From Oceanibaculum indicum P24 (GTDB lineage: Bacteria; Pseudomonadota; Alphaproteobacteria; Oceanibaculales; Oceanibaculaceae): a stretch of 64,000 nucleotides of DNA. The notes below the pieces were generated by a model, which ran no database searches, had not been told where the DNA came from, and was given only the letters and a program-made list of their open reading frames with translations. The stretch spans positions 62,001 through 126,000 of the forward strand of contig NZ_AMRL01000007.1 in NCBI RefSeq assembly GCF_000299935.1, read 5' to 3'. The translations under genes were made by a program, and so were the position numbers. Of the stretch, positions 44,405-50,853 are shown in pieces; the stretch's first letter is position 1; every line of letters begins with the position of its first letter.

Positions 44405-45427
44405 CTAGCGCAGGGCGGCGATGGCTGTTCCCAGCGGCGTGCCGGCATCCGCTGTCGGCAGGCAATATTGGCCTGCCTGCTTCAGCCGCTCGCACAGGCT
44501 TTGGGCTTCCGCCTGCGTGAGGGCGGAGGCCTGCAGCCGCAGCATCCGGCCGCGCCCGCCGCCCAGATCGACCTCCAGCACCATTGGCACCAGCGTCCCC
44601 AGCTCCGACGGATAGCGGCGCTGCAGGATGCGCCAGCCATCGCGCGCATTCTCGAGGCTGCGGTAGGAGGCAAGATGGATCGCCGCGGTCAGCGCTTCCG
44701 GGATGGCTGCCGGGGCCCTTTGAGGGACGGGCTGCGGTGGCGGCGCTGCTGGCCTTGGCGCCGGCTCGGCGGCCTTCATGGCGGGCGTGTTCTGCCCCGG
44801 CTGCGGCGACAGCGACAGGCGCAGGCTGCCCGGGTCAGATAACGGACCGGAGGGCGGTGCCGAGGGGGTTGCCGGGGACGGCGCAGACAGAGGGGCGACC
44901 GGCGGGCTGACCGGTCGGCCAATAGGCGTCGCCATGGTCAGGCTGGTCTGGTCAGAACCCGCCTTGGGCTCAAGGCGGGGATTGGACGTGACTGCCTTCG
45001 CCACCGGCGCATCCTGGGAGCGGGCGGCGACGGCACCCTCCATCTGGCTCAGCAGGGCACGGATATCGCCATCGATGCGCGTCAGCCGGCTGATTGCCGG
45101 CTCGGCCGCCTGGAACTGTTTCTGCAGGCCGGTGATCCGGCTGTCCAGCTCGTCGAGCCGGGCCAGGATCGCGTCCACCCCCGGCATGCCACCACTCGTC
45201 ATTTGTGCGCTGTAGGCAGCGCCTGAGCCCGAAGACAAGCCGAGGGCCGGGATACCGGCATCGTTCGGCGCGGTCGCTGTTGACTGAATGGGCGGTGCAT
45301 CTGCCGGCAGGCGCGGCGGGGCCAGGAAACCGGTACGCGCACTGCTGCCGCATCCGGCCAGGCTGACAGCCAAACCGGCTGCCATGCAGGCAGTCAGGAT
45401 CGGTCGGTTGTTGTGTCGCGCAGCCAT
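44405..45427 (-). CDS. SPOR-domain lipoprotein
   Basis: 340 residues: lipoprotein signal with lipobox LAGC (Cys26), a helical or coiled-coil segment (about 90-140, ILARLDELDSRITGLQKQF), a long Pro/Ala-rich linker (about 145-245), and a C-terminal SPOR-like domain (about 249-325, AIHLASYRSLENARDGW ... LTQAEAQSLCERLKQAGQYC). SPOR domains bind glycan strands stripped of peptides at division sites. It is divergent from the pilin-chaperone-usher operon, 215 bases away, and the usher-like protein has a similar C-terminal domain. Confidence 0.82.
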   Translation of the reverse strand: MAARHNNRPILTACMAAGLAVSLAGCGSSARTGFLAPPRLPADAPPIQSTATAPNDAGIPALGLSSGSGAAYSAQMTSGGMPGVDAILARLDELDSRITGLQKQFQAAEPAISRLTRIDGDIRALLSQMEGAVAARSQDAPVAKAVTSNPRLEPKAGSDQTSLTMATPIGRPVSPPVAPLSAPSPATPSAPPSGPLSDPGSLRLSLSPQPGQNTPAMKAAEPAPRPAAPPPQPVPQRAPAAIPEALTAAIHLASYRSLENARDGWRILQRRYPSELGTLVPMVLEVDLGGGRGRMLRLQASALTQAEAQSLCERLKQAGQYCLPTADAGTPLGTAIAALR

Positions 45428-45642: not shown

Positions 45643-46266
45643 ATGAAACGGCTTATCAAATTCGGCCTGGCCCTGGCGGCCCTGGCCTTCGTCGTCCCGG
45701 CCGCGCAGGCGCAGACGACCGAGACATTCACCGCGACTGCCACGGTGGCCAGCAGCCTGACCATCACCCAGAACACGGCGCTCAGCTTTGGCAATCTGGT
45801 TGTCATTCAGGACGGCACCAACGCCGCCGCGGCGACCCTCAGCGCAGCCGGCGTCTTCACGAGGGCGGCACAGGTGGGTACGGAAAACCTGATCCAGACC
45901 GGTACGCCGACCCCCGGCAACTTCACGGTCAACACCGGCGTTGCCAGCTTCGTGAACGTCCAGGTGACCTTCCCGAGTGCCGCGATCACCCTGACCAACG
46001 GCGCTGCCCCTCCGGGTAACGGCACCTTCTCCGTCGGTACCTTCACCGTTGCCGCGCCGACCGCCGGCACGCTGGGTGGCACCACGACGACGGTGGGTGC
46101 CTGTAACACGGCCATCGCCGCCGGCAACCCCTGCCAGTACACCACCAGCAACGGCGGTCTCGTGACCTTCCCGCTGGGTGCGACCATCACCGTCGGTTCG
46201 GCGACCGCCACCTTCATCGACGGCACCTACTCGGGCAATTTCGACCTGACCGCCGCCTTCTACTGA
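45643..46266 (+). CDS. DUF4402 pilin-like secreted protein
   Basis: 207 residues with a signal peptide (about 1-24, AQA before QTTETF). The mature part is Thr/Ala/Gly/Val-rich beta structure with the DUF4402 C-terminal ATFIDGTYSGNFDLTAAFY. Two close cysteines (GACNTAIAAGNPC) may form a disulfide. DUF4402 proteins are thought to be fimbrial subunits. ATG 45643 follows a GGAGGAGG site. It is the first gene of an operon with a second DUF4402 gene, a PapD-like chaperone and a large usher-like protein. Confidence 0.85.
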   Translation: MKRLIKFGLALAALAFVVPAAQAQTTETFTATATVASSLTITQNTALSFGNLVVIQDGTNAAAATLSAAGVFTRAAQVGTENLIQTGTPTPGNFTVNTGVASFVNVQVTFPSAAITLTNGAAPPGNGTFSVGTFTVAAPTAGTLGGTTTTVGACNTAIAAGNPCQYTTSNGGLVTFPLGATITVGSATATFIDGTYSGNFDLTAAFY

Positions 46267-46284
46267 TGCGGCCTTTTCGCTGAA

Positions 46285-46770
46285 ATGGCTCCCAGAATGG
46301 CCGCCATCGCCTTATCCGGGGCGGTGGCGGCTTTCGCCTGTCCGGCCGGATTTTTACCAGCCGCCGCCCAGACCGTGGTGGAGCTGGACCCGCTGAGCTT
46401 CGGCACCTTCGTCGTGCCGTCGAACGCGGCGGTCAGTACGCTCACGGTGCCGCTGAACGGCTCGGTCTCCACTACCGGCAGCATCATCGCGCTGACGCAG
46501 GGCATAGCCGGCCGCTACCGGGTTGGTGGCCTGCCGGGCAACGCCATTGTCGATATCGACATCACGGCGGCCCCGCTGTTCGGCCCGGCCCTGCCACCCA
46601 GCCAGTATTTCCAGATCACCGCCTTCGACCATCCGCCGACCGTCACCACCAATGCCAGCGGGACAGCGACCTTCCGGCTGGGGGCGACGCTGTCCACCTC
46701 GGGCAGTGGCGTGCCTTACACGGACAGCACCTATACCGGCACCATCGACGTCACGGTAACGCTGCAATAG
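46285..46770 (+). CDS. Second DUF4402 pilin-like protein
   Basis: 161 residues with a signal peptide (about 1-28, AAAQ region). The beta-rich body ends in PYTDSTYTGTIDVTVTLQ, the DUF4402 C-terminal pattern. It has no cysteine in the mature part, unlike the first subunit. It begins 18 bases after that gene and may be a minor subunit, adaptor or tip protein. Confidence 0.8.
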   Translation: MAPRMAAIALSGAVAAFACPAGFLPAAAQTVVELDPLSFGTFVVPSNAAVSTLTVPLNGSVSTTGSIIALTQGIAGRYRVGGLPGNAIVDIDITAAPLFGPALPPSQYFQITAFDHPPTVTTNASGTATFRLGATLSTSGSGVPYTDSTYTGTIDVTVTLQ

Positions 46771-46784
46771 AGGCAGGCCAGCAT

Positions 46785-47576
46785 ATGCGCGGACTCTCCC
46801 TTCTGTTCTTTCTTCTTATCTCCCTGGCCCTGCTGCTGCCAGCACCGGCTGCCGCCGATCTGCTGATCACCCCGAAGCGCCTCGTGCTCGACAGCCAGAG
46901 CCGCGACGGCATCTTCCGGCTGGTGAACACCAGCGATCGCGCCCAGAGCTACGAACTGGTCTGGCAGCAATTGCGCATGAACGAGATGGGAACCCTGGAC
47001 GATATGGGCGAGAACGCCGCCGGGGCTGCCAGCCGGCTGCTGCTGCTGGCGCCGACACGGGTAACGCTGCAGCCGGGCGAGCGGCAGACGGTACGGCTGA
47101 CCCCGCGCCTGCCGGAAGGTCTGCCGGAGGGCGAGTACATGTCGCACCTGCTGTTCCGCCCGGTCACACCGCCGCCGCCGCCGAGCAGCGTCACCGGGCA
47201 GGGGGCGGAGATGCAGCTTGCCGTGCGCGTCGGCTTCTCGATCCCGGTCTTCCTGCGCCATGGCAACCTGTCCGCCCAGGCCGCCATCCGCCCCATCGGC
47301 ATCGACGCTAATGGCGTGACTGTCGAAATGCGCCGCGAAGGCACGGCCAGCATCTTCGGCAATCTGTCGATGTTCTGGGGCCAGCCAGGCCGGGACGGGC
47401 TACAGGTCGGTCGGCTCGACAGCGTTGCCATCTACGCCAACCTCACCCAGCGCACGGTGACCGTGCCGTTCGACCCGGCCAGCGGCGTCACCGTTGGGGC
47501 CGGGCTGCTGATGGTCCGATATACCGACCCGGACAGCAATGCGGTGCTGGCCGAATCGACCGTCCGCCTGGAATGA
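46785..47576 (+). CDS. Periplasmic fimbrial chaperone (PapD-like)
   Basis: 263 residues with a signal peptide (about 1-24, AAA before DLLITPKRLV). Two Ig-like domains: the first (about 25-145) has the family VFRLVNTS-like and QPGERQTVRL segments and an MSHLLFRPV strand. The second contains LTQRTVTVPFDPASG. It should bind the DUF4402 subunits by donor-strand complementation and hand them to the usher-like protein. It starts 14 bases after the second pilin stop. Confidence 0.85.
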   Translation: MRGLSLLFFLLISLALLLPAPAAADLLITPKRLVLDSQSRDGIFRLVNTSDRAQSYELVWQQLRMNEMGTLDDMGENAAGAASRLLLLAPTRVTLQPGERQTVRLTPRLPEGLPEGEYMSHLLFRPVTPPPPPSSVTGQGAEMQLAVRVGFSIPVFLRHGNLSAQAAIRPIGIDANGVTVEMRREGTASIFGNLSMFWGQPGRDGLQVGRLDSVAIYANLTQRTVTVPFDPASGVTVGAGLLMVRYTDPDSNAVLAESTVRLE

Positions 47577-47583
47577 CGCCGGC

Positions 47584-50500
47584 ATGCGGGGGGAGGGCCG
47601 ATATCGGGTAACCGGCGGCGGGGTAATCCTCGCCGCGCTGCTGTCCGTTACCGGTTCCGCCGCCGCCAACACGACCGATCCGATGGAAAAGCTGCTCCGC
47701 GACTTCTATCAGCGCGTGGCACCGGTCTATGGTGCCCCTCAACCTGCTGGGCAACCCACCACCCAACCTGATGCGCCGCCGCACCTGCCGGATGCCGCCC
47801 CGGCCCTGCGGACGGTACCGGCTGATCCGGGCCGCCTGGCGCGTCCCGCCTCCACCGGCGCCAGCCGGGTGCCGGACGGCACGGTACTGCTGCTAACCGT
47901 GCGTATCGATCGGGACCGGCTGGTGGAGCCGCTGATGGTCGTGACCGAGGGCAACGGCTTCCGGGTCGATCTGGGCAGCTTCGTGCAGGCCTTCGAATTC
48001 CCGATCCTGGTCGATGCCGGGCAGGGCCGCGCCGAGGGCTGGTTCATCAGCCCGGACAATGATTTCCGACTCGACCTTGGGGCTGGAACCGTAACCAGCC
48101 GGGGGCAGACACGGGCGCTGCGCGCGGGGGAGGTGGTGCGCAGCGACGGCGCGTTGATGATCGGCGACTGGGTGCTGAAAGAATGGTTCGGGCTGGAGGC
48201 GACGCCCAATCTGGCCGATCTGGAATTGCGCATCGAGGCGGATGAACTGCTACCCTTCCAGCAGCGCCAGCGCCGCGAGCAGCGCTTCACCCAGCGCCAG
48301 AGCTATTCGACGCCGCGCGCCACCCTGCCGCCGGCACCGGAAGGGCGGCCGCTGGTCGGCCCGCCGGTTGTCGATCTGTTGGCCTCCAGCCGGCTGACCG
48401 GCGGCGACAATCAGGAAACCCGGGTTGGCGGTAACTACGCCGCTACCGTCGGCGCGGGGCTGCTGGGCGGAGCCTTCGCTGCCTATCTGTCGGGTGACGA
48501 GAATGAGCCGCTGTCCTCCGCCCGCGCCAACCTGTCCTATTACGATCCGGACGGGCTGGCTGGCCTCGGCCTCGTGACGCAGGCGCGGTTCGGCGATATC
48601 TCCGGCTTTGCCACCACGCTGCTGGCCCCCAGCGCCAGCGGTCAGGGCGTTTATCTCAGCAACCTGCCGGTCGGCGCGCAGCTGCGCAGCGACGCCACCA
48701 CGATCAGCGGCGATGCGTTGCCCGGCTATGATGTGGAGCTGTACCGCGACGAGCAGCTGGTCGGCTTCCAGCGGGTCGGCGAGAACGGCCAATATATCTT
48801 CGAGAATGTGGAACTGTTCGCCGGCGAGAATCGCTTCCGCATCGTGCGCTACGGCCCGCAGGGGCAGATCGAGGAGGAAACCCGCACGGTCACTGCCGGC
48901 GGCGAGATTGGCGGCGTGCCGCTGACCTACCAGTTCGCCGCCTCGATGATCGATGACGGGCCGGACGAGGGCGCGCTGCAATCCAGCCTGGCGACCCGCC
49001 TGGCCGTCGGCGGCGGAGTGGCCGTGCTGGCCAGCGCCGGCACCACCGAATATCGCGGCGAACGCGTCAGTGACGCCCTTCTGGGCGGGCAATATCGCGT
49101 CGGCACCTTCCTGATGGAGGGGCTGGCGGGGCGCGATACGCTGGGCCGGACACTCGGCCGTGCCGCCGTGCAGACGCGCATCGGTACGGATTCGCTTCGC
49201 TTCAGCCATGAGGTGCGGCCTGAATCGCTGCGCCCGGAACTGGGCAACCGCCGACGCACGGAGATCGCGCTGAGCGGCTATGTGCAGGGGCCGGTGCTGG
49301 GCCTGCCCTATCTGCGCTATACGGTGGGGGCGGAGGATGTCAGCGATTCGGTCGTGGAAGAGGCGCGCTCCCTGACCGGCAAGCTGGGCACCCAAATCGG
49401 CCGCTTCACCCTGAACAACGACCTGCTGTGGACACAAAGCAAGGAACGTCCGACGGAGTTTCGCGCCGGTCGCGAGGGCACGGACCTGAATGTGGTGCAT
49501 CAGGCCAGCTTCCCGCTTGGCCAGCTGCGCAACCGGTTCCGCCTCGGCTACCGCGCCGCGCCGGATTTCGAGATGACCGAGTTCCAGGCCAATTCGCTGT
49601 GGCTGATCGAGCGGGACTTCACCGCCGAGATGGATGTCCGCCACCGTTTCGAGACTGACCTGACCCGCGTGCAGGCGCGGCTGAACTACGATATGGGCAG
49701 CGTCGTGCTCAGCCCGCGCCTAAGTTACGACAATAACGGCGTCTATGGCGCCTTCCTGGACCTGCGCCTGTCCACCGGCATCGAGCCGATGACCGGCAAT
49801 GTCAGGATGCAGAGCCGCCCCGCCGCCAATGACGGCTCCATCGCCGTGCAGGTGTTCCTGGACGAGAACGAGAATGGCGTGTTCGACCCCGGCGAGGAAC
49901 AGCTGGAAGGGGTGGAGGTGCAGGCGCTGCAGGCGCGCCGTTCGGCACTGACCGATTCGACCGGCATCGCCATCCTGCGCAATGTCCAGCCCTTCGAGAC
50001 CAGCGATGTGCGCATCATCCCCTCGACCCTGCCGGAAACCCACCTGCAGCCGGGTGTGGAGGGCTATTCCGCACGGCTGCTGCCCGGCGGCACGCAGAAC
50101 ATGATCCTGCCGGTGGTGCGCAGCTGGACAGTGGAGGGCCGGGCGCTCAGCACCACCGCACAGGGCGAGGCGGTGCCGCTGCCGGGCATTGACGTTGTCG
50201 TCATGGACCGCGACAGCGGGGAGGTGGTTGCCAGCACCACGACGCTGGGCGATGGCAGCTACAGCATTACCGGGCTGCGTCAGGGCAGCTACCGCATATC
50301 CCTGTCGGCGGAGTCGCTGGGCAGCCGGCTGGCTCCCGCCTATGCCCGGCCGCTGCTGACCGATGTGCGGGAGACCACCTATCACGCGGTCGATCTGCTG
50401 GCCGTCGAGCCGGGAGCCCCGGCCCATTATCCGCCGCTGCGCCGCGCCAGCGGGCCGGGGCCGCTGATGCTGCCGCTGGGCGCCAGTGCGTCCGACATCA

Positions 50501-50853
50501 GGACGCCAGAACCGGAGGCATCCCGCCAGGTGATCGCGGTGCGTGTCGGCCAATACCGATCCCGCTTGGCGCTGGTCATGGGCTGGTCGGAGCTGGTGGA
50601 GCGCACCGGCCCGCTGCTGGCCGGGCTGGTGCCGGTGCTGTCGCCCAGCGAGGAAGCCCGGCTGCTGGCCGACCGCACCTCGCTGTTCCCGCTGCGGCTG
50701 GGGCCGCTGGTTAACCGTGACGCGGCGGAGCTGCTGTGCGATCTGCTGCGCCAGATCGGTCGGTCCTGCGTGCCGGCGCTGGTGGACTGGCAGGAAGACC
50801 GCATCGCCGAGCATCCGCCCGCCGCGCTGAAAGCCGCCAGCGCCACGCGGTGA
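47584..50853 (+). CDS. Large usher-like outer-membrane protein with C-terminal SPOR-like domain
   Basis: 1089 residues, larger than ordinary ushers. Signal peptide about 1-30; a Pro-rich linker; an N-terminal domain; a long beta-barrel-like region (about 270-740) with segments such as GYDVELYRDEQLVGFQRVGE followed by FENVELFAGENRFRIVRYGP, which recall usher plug regions; a segment with VFLDENENGVFDPGEEQLEG, like Ca-binding SdrD or carboxypeptidase-regulatory repeats; a second such repeat (GSYSITGLRQGSYRISL); and a C-terminal SPOR-like domain (about 981-1065) with two cysteines. ATG 47584 is chosen because it gives the signal peptide and follows the chaperone stop; an ATG at 47539 lies inside the chaperone gene. 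Confidence 0.75.
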   Translation: MRGEGRYRVTGGGVILAALLSVTGSAAANTTDPMEKLLRDFYQRVAPVYGAPQPAGQPTTQPDAPPHLPDAAPALRTVPADPGRLARPASTGASRVPDGTVLLLTVRIDRDRLVEPLMVVTEGNGFRVDLGSFVQAFEFPILVDAGQGRAEGWFISPDNDFRLDLGAGTVTSRGQTRALRAGEVVRSDGALMIGDWVLKEWFGLEATPNLADLELRIEADELLPFQQRQRREQRFTQRQSYSTPRATLPPAPEGRPLVGPPVVDLLASSRLTGGDNQETRVGGNYAATVGAGLLGGAFAAYLSGDENEPLSSARANLSYYDPDGLAGLGLVTQARFGDISGFATTLLAPSASGQGVYLSNLPVGAQLRSDATTISGDALPGYDVELYRDEQLVGFQRVGENGQYIFENVELFAGENRFRIVRYGPQGQIEEETRTVTAGGEIGGVPLTYQFAASMIDDGPDEGALQSSLATRLAVGGGVAVLASAGTTEYRGERVSDALLGGQYRVGTFLMEGLAGRDTLGRTLGRAAVQTRIGTDSLRFSHEVRPESLRPELGNRRRTEIALSGYVQGPVLGLPYLRYTVGAEDVSDSVVEEARSLTGKLGTQIGRFTLNNDLLWTQSKERPTEFRAGREGTDLNVVHQASFPLGQLRNRFRLGYRAAPDFEMTEFQANSLWLIERDFTAEMDVRHRFETDLTRVQARLNYDMGSVVLSPRLSYDNNGVYGAFLDLRLSTGIEPMTGNVRMQSRPAANDGSIAVQVFLDENENGVFDPGEEQLEGVEVQALQARRSALTDSTGIAILRNVQPFETSDVRIIPSTLPETHLQPGVEGYSARLLPGGTQNMILPVVRSWTVEGRALSTTAQGEAVPLPGIDVVVMDRDSGEVVASTTTLGDGSYSITGLRQGSYRISLSAESLGSRLAPAYARPLLTDVRETTYHAVDLLAVEPGAPAHYPPLRRASGPGPLMLPLGASASDIRTPEPEASRQVIAVRVGQYRSRLALVMGWSELVERTGPLLAGLVPVLSPSEEARLLADRTSLFPLRLGPLVNRDAAELLCDLLRQIGRSCVPALVDWQEDRIAEHPPAALKAASATR

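Follow-up and report, generated by a model that had tools for sequence, protein, structure and literature searches.

What is an outer-membrane barrel protein that ends in a domain of peptidoglycan-binding type doing in an operon of pilin and chaperone genes? The question is raised by a locus in a 64,000-nucleotide stretch of the Oceanibaculum indicum P24 genome (contig NZ_AMRL01000007.1, positions 62,001 to 126,000 of the forward strand), which is called the window here; all coordinates are those of the window. The analysis supports a non-canonical chaperone-usher system that combines DUF4402 pilins with an usher carrying a SPOR tail, and the structure and genomics of this chaperone-usher variant are fairly firm. 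We consider it probable, on balance, that the locus encodes a fibre machine registered to the peptidoglycan, most likely at the septum and hence at the new pole. To our knowledge, no link between chaperone-usher pili and the cell wall is known. The operon consists of the following genes.

45643-46266, plus strand: pilin 1, DUF4402-like, 207 aa, with a signal peptide (open reading frame; iterated family profile, E 2e-38; alignment)
46285-46770, plus strand: pilin 2, DUF4402 (Pfam PF14352, E 3.8e-9, 37.7 bits against a cut-off of 25.2; the sole DUF4402 match in the genome)
46785-47576, plus strand: PapD-like periplasmic chaperone, 263 aa (weak PapD_N match; homologue profiles)
47584-50853, plus strand: outer-membrane usher with a SPOR tail, 1089 aa (open reading frame; AlphaFold model; FimD/PapC fold match)

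An earlier note on this DNA had assigned two DUF4402 subunits, a chaperone of PapD type and a barrel protein of 1089 residues to one operon, and the open reading frames bear this out, with all four genes on the plus strand and intergenic gaps of 7-18 bases (45643-50853). The note overlooked the adjoining fifth gene on the minus strand (44405-45424), which is described below.

Whether the barrel protein is an usher was addressed with an AlphaFold model computed from 18 sequences (predicted, not solved; mean predicted local distance difference test score (pLDDT) 76.6, predicted template modelling score 0.57), from which its anatomy is read as follows, all parts lying on the plus strand.

47866-48243, plus strand: N-terminal periplasmic domain, aa 95-220 (by position; pLDDT mostly 77-93)
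48367-49782, plus strand: 24-strand barrel, aa 262-733 (DSSP of the model; FimD/PapC match)
48667-48918, plus strand: plug domain, aa 362-445 (model; most of the invariant residues of the family lie here)
49816-50418, plus strand: two C-terminal beta-sandwich domains, aa 745-945, equivalent to the FimD C-terminal domains CTD1 and CTD2 (Pfam label CarboxypepD_reg/SdrD_B; VIA)
50419-50514, plus strand: proline-rich flexible linker, aa 946-977 (pLDDT below 50 at 951-979)
50515-50793, plus strand: SPOR tail, aa 978-1070 (profile, hhalign, predicted fold, conservation)

The barrel follows the rule of PapC and FimD, a 24-strand barrel with the plug after strand 6: in the DSSP assignment of the model, six strands precede the plug and 18 follow it. 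Among solved structures, the first 17 Foldseek matches of the usher model are all FimD or PapC (E 1e-25 to 6e-12), as are the first 15 in VIA (Z 18.6-15.6), where the first other barrel follows at Z 13.8. The usher-like barrel with a plug that had been proposed from the letters alone is thus recovered in the predicted structure. By sequence the relationship is far less visible. Neither the usher models of Pfam (at E<1) nor those of NCBIfam match the barrel protein, and sequence searches of the PDB with it return only SdrD-type and similar matches and no usher; a profile of the usher family itself reaches classical ushers with a best E of 4e-8 (n = 30), a weak kinship. The VIA alignment lays residues 252-940 of the model on FimD 131-833, and because the CarboxypepD_reg/SdrD_B repeats fall inside the segment aligned to the FimD C-terminal domains, they are ordinary usher anatomy; this alignment rules out the earlier reading of them as carboxypeptidase-regulatory or Ca-binding-like. 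Residues 95-220 are also modelled as a folded domain, and the VIA alignments to FimD start only near residue 250.

The C-terminal SPOR-like domain of the earlier note is upheld by three approaches that agree, namely an independent profile, hhalign and the predicted fold. The independent SPOR profile, built exclusively from SPOR domains of related alphaproteobacteria that Pfam confirms and that do not belong to ushers, matches usher residues 984-1063 over nearly its full length (E 4.9e-6, 45 proteins), whereas Pfam SPOR (PF05036) has no match to the window usher at E<1 and NCBIfam does not recognise the domain either. The tail of the O. pacificum usher reaches E 3.5e-8 with the independent profile and 19.9 bits with Pfam SPOR, for which the cut-off is 21. 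In hhalign, the tail aligns with SPOR at 97.4% (E 1.6e-11), while the negative controls (tailless ushers, AMIN tails and Micavibrio tails) stay below 1%; a search of PDB sequences with the tail profile found no SPOR chain. Modelled alone (pLDDT 83.6), the tail takes up a SPOR fold with the order strand 5-15, helix 18-36, strand 59-66, helix 69-81, strand 87-93, and its best matches are CwlC and RlpA. The top three Foldseek rows are the SPOR domains of these two proteins, with a modest best E of 1.4e-3, and RlpA (Z 8.1 and 8.0), CwlC (6.3) and DedD (6.0) occupy four of the first five places in VIA, the remaining one being 6ozd, tied with RlpA; the structural matches include CwlC 1x60, RlpA 6i09/6i05 and DedD 6ztg. 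Each of the four Oceanibaculum genomes examined has the tail, and the usher frame has neither a stop nor a frameshift. Between the two closest species, no part of the protein is better conserved than the tail (98% identity; ratio of nonsynonymous to synonymous substitution rates (dN/dS) 0.04 vs. 0.19 for the barrel), and in comparisons of more distant species it evolves at the pace of the remaining protein. Taken with the fold of the barrel, this makes it almost certain that the barrel protein is a true usher bearing a SPOR-fold tail.

The tail is not peculiar to Oceanibaculum. Relatives were sought in 385 genomes from the class, in 398 from the phylum and, with a single scan, in named genomes, and 45 usher relatives were placed in a tree; since the sampling was centred on the window, the tail frequencies given here are not a census. 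The relatives come from Alpha- and Gammaproteobacteria, a Comamonadaceae metagenome-assembled genome (MAG), one MAG labelled Acidobacteriota and one Balneolia MAG, and in nearly all of those with flanking sequence the pilin, chaperone and usher genes are clustered. SPOR tails above the Pfam cut-off occur in L024/L086 (53 bits), Granulosicoccus (L071, 53), a gammaproteobacterium (L075, 75), L057-L059 (35-43 bits) and L161 (22.6), and the glycan-contact Gln is retained in L071, L075, L086, L057-L059 and L084. Other ushers end in AMIN domains (L078, L083, L095), and in the Balneolia MAG an usher with adjoining pilin and chaperone genes carries a tandem array of two OmpA-type and two SPOR domains (L084:3009-6974). 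Six changes of the SPOR state are required on the maximum-likelihood tree of the usher core, at least four of them forced by strongly supported branches, and the AMIN tails form one separate clade; because support is low for the deep branches and several long ones come together, gains and losses of SPOR are not separable everywhere. Judged from sequence, a tail of peptidoglycan-binding type is a recurring design across this usher family, realised with SPOR, AMIN or OmpA. The earlier note had called such a tail foreign to known chaperone-usher design, and so it is in what we covered: SPOR is found in none of 30 loci with classical PF00577 ushers of the same phylum, and the literature searched, with subscription papers largely outside its reach, ties neither SPOR nor AMIN to ushers and does not name DUF4402.

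A second SPOR domain is encoded next door, in a gene that adjoins pilin 1 and is transcribed divergently from it.

44405-45424, minus strand: coiled-coil lipoprotein of 339 aa, divergently encoded, with the lipobox LAGC and SPOR at its C-terminus, the proposed fifth component (SPOR profile; recurrence beside ushers)
44462-44683, minus strand: SPOR domain of the lipoprotein (independent SPOR profile)
45023-45175, minus strand: conserved coiled-coil motif of the lipoprotein (family profile; alignment)

Pfam SPOR meets this lipoprotein at E 0.09 and the independent SPOR profile at E 2e-14 (iE 8e-14, positions 4-69 of 70). Members of its family with a SPOR end adjoin usher genes in Oceanibaculum (L065, the O. 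pacificum locus, where the same usher occurs in the same-genus genome G003, and L066, a marine alphaproteobacterial MAG locus with the same usher in genome G002), L085, L100 and L101, and members with an AMIN-type end do so in L068-L070, L072-L074, L077-L079, L088, L091 and L095; the ends lie above the Pfam cut-off for AMIN in L068 and L088 and for SPOR in L100 and L101, the others being assigned by resemblance. A strong lipoprotein match (E <1e-7) was found in 11 of the 385 genomes, nine of which have the usher, itself present in 22 of 385, and this co-occurrence favours a link between the two (Fisher p 5.5e-11, not corrected for phylogeny). The lipoproteins of L159, L160 and L162 belong to the same family and join a coiled coil with SPOR or AMIN. 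Also in favour of a usher registered to the wall, L164:1318-3459 holds a lipobox-like segment, SPOR and an usher N-terminus in one reading frame, and its usher is broken by a frameshift farther on (a pseudogene or an assembly error).

How might these parts work together? The PapD-like chaperone would hand the DUF4402 pilins to the usher, which would thread them through its plugged 24-strand barrel and export them in the classical manner to form a fibre. On the periplasmic face of the usher, the flexible linker would extend the SPOR domain towards the peptidoglycan, and the coiled-coil lipoprotein would supply a second SPOR domain next to it; in putative contact with each other, tail and lipoprotein would fasten the usher to the wall, most likely to peptidoglycan trimmed by amidases at the septum. 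We regard it as likely that the usher tail, the lipoprotein or both bind peptidoglycan. Ushers could then be inserted where the cell divides and be passed on to the new pole, as happens to PilQ via its AMIN domains, and we give such septal or polar placement nearly an even chance. SPOR domains recognise denuded septal glycan, which RlpA contacts through Q270 (PMC6895207), and the AMIN domains of PilQ are needed for its midcell and polar recruitment, to division sites and nascent poles (PMC5285504, PMC10653833); because SPOR binds denuded septal glycan and AMIN places PilQ, the common effect of the exchanged modules would be peptidoglycan binding, plausibly septal. More tentatively, and with somewhat less than even weight, we propose that the family is an unrecognised cross-phylum branch of chaperone-usher systems in which swapping SPOR and AMIN tails, together with the lipoprotein, address the usher, a second and independent invention resembling that of PilQ and AMIN.

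Several observations weigh against an usher registered to the cell wall. SPOR strand 2 is missing from the tail model, where a helix and a loop take its place. The residue equivalent to RlpA Q270, which is usual in SPOR domains and not fold-defining, is Arg in all four Oceanibaculum usher tails, the first Arg of the strand 3 basic patch (the R309 position in our alignment) is Pro in the Oceanibaculum ushers, and the SPOR domain of the lipoprotein has His where the glycan-contact Gln is expected; given these replacements, the affinity for glycan in Oceanibaculum may have changed or been lost. Among the sampled relatives, 18 of 45 ushers have no tail, so the tail is not essential to export. The Fisher value for the co-occurrence of lipoprotein and usher takes four genomes from a single genus to be independent. 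The lipoprotein was not found beside the SPOR-tailed ushers L071, L075 and L084, and its family occurs without an usher within ~7 kb in L159, L160 and, as a second copy, in L162; since it is also present away from ushers, the lipoprotein would be a partner in the usher system here, though perhaps not exclusively.

The alternative that survives best, unlikely as we think it, is a mechanical anchor without addressing, with tail and lipoprotein binding peptidoglycan all over the cell and only keeping the usher in the outer membrane when the fibre is under load. For this, the exchanged SPOR, AMIN and OmpA modules need share only peptidoglycan binding; domains of OmpA type show no preference for the septum in their peptidoglycan binding, and the loss of the key SPOR Gln in Oceanibaculum could relax the choice of glycan. 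The commonest tail, however, is SPOR, known for septal denuded glycan (PMC6895207), and AMIN is known for septum and poles (PMC5285504, PMC10653833). Less probable still is a SPOR fold kept for contact with a protein (the lipoprotein, the chaperone or a division protein) after glycan binding had gone, as the strong constraint on the tail despite the replaced Q270 and R309 equivalents in all four Oceanibaculum ushers could suggest. Against this, unrelated peptidoglycan-binding folds have been recruited at the same place in relatives, which points to the glycan and not to a common protein partner, and the contact of SPOR with glycan runs largely via the main chain (PMC6895207). Finally, although in many relatives nothing follows the second C-terminal domain (L009, L048, L080, L087), a chance fusion or artefact, in which an ordinary usher gene has lately become joined to a SPOR gene downstream of it, has next to no probability and is in effect ruled out because the tail is conserved, being shared by four species with a low dN/dS between the closest pair, repeated in distant lineages and free of stops and frameshifts.

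Standard profiles recognise the remaining genes of the operon unevenly. Pilin 1 has no relevant Pfam match and joins the DUF4402-type pilin family only through the iterated family profile, and the aligned DUF4402 subunits have a conserved terminal strand, YxGxxxVTVxY. The chaperone matches PapD_N with E 5.6e-4 and 20.3 bits, below the 23-bit cut-off; seven of 14 chaperone homologues match PapD_N (best E 1.2e-5), and the gene is conserved beside the usher among relatives. As a Pfam profile search finds no PF00577 usher anywhere in the Oceanibaculum genome and pilin 2 is its single PF14352 match, the locus appears to be the sole chaperone-usher system of the genome, within reach of these two profiles.

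The usher family also shows variation of other kinds. The C-terminus of the L085 usher (L085:6284-10375) has three successive SPOR-like repeats by the SPOR profile. The Micavibrio-type ushers (L072-L074, L077, L079, L091) have in common a tail of ~100 residues with conserved cysteines that matches neither SPOR nor AMIN; a degenerate SPOR domain was considered for it and found no support (hhalign 0.6%). Two family members from alphaproteobacteria of one genus (L092:5738-9448 and L097:5604-9464; G061/G276) carry N-terminal ShlB-type POTRA domains (PF08479, 6e-16 and 9e-11), an architecture hybrid between usher and two-partner secretion, and the usher L168:5737-8844 has a C-terminal extension that includes the His-rich run KRKRSHHHHHHSAQHPPHYP. 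Tailless loci were also sampled from one other family of the class (L103, L166, L169).

A branch that repeatedly acquired peptidoglycan-binding modules would make the anchoring and placement of outer-membrane pores testable, and its natural series of SPOR, AMIN, OmpA and no tail is a ready experiment. Ushers registered to peptidoglycan, if true, would be a design common to chaperone-usher and type IV pili, and this reading would assign a function to DUF4402 and to the barrels labelled 'carboxypeptidase regulatory-like'.

Compared with known systems, the locus resembles those of FimD and PapC in the plug after strand 6, the two C-terminal beta-sandwich domains, the weakly matched PapD-like chaperone and the presence of pilins in the operon, and differs from them in an usher that Pfam does not detect, DUF4402 pilins, a tail of peptidoglycan-binding type and a partner lipoprotein. 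With PilQ and TsaP it has in common an outer-membrane pilus pore with a peptidoglycan-binding domain and a second peptidoglycan-binding protein (PMC5285504, PMC10653833; TsaP of type IVa pili is cited in PMC7616799), but pore and pilus are unrelated, and the SPOR or AMIN domain of the usher is C-terminal, its binding being predicted only. FtsN, DamX, DedD, RlpA and CwlC have the same SPOR fold; these proteins serve in division or are enzymes of the wall, whereas here SPOR sits on a fibre-export barrel and the conserved Gln has become Arg. Also among the closest counterparts are plasmid homologues of the same usher family in Sphingopyxis and Pseudoalteromonas, which are named 'carboxypeptidase regulatory-like', 'SdrD B-like' or 'hypothetical' in the databases, the first of these names hiding their identity as ushers.

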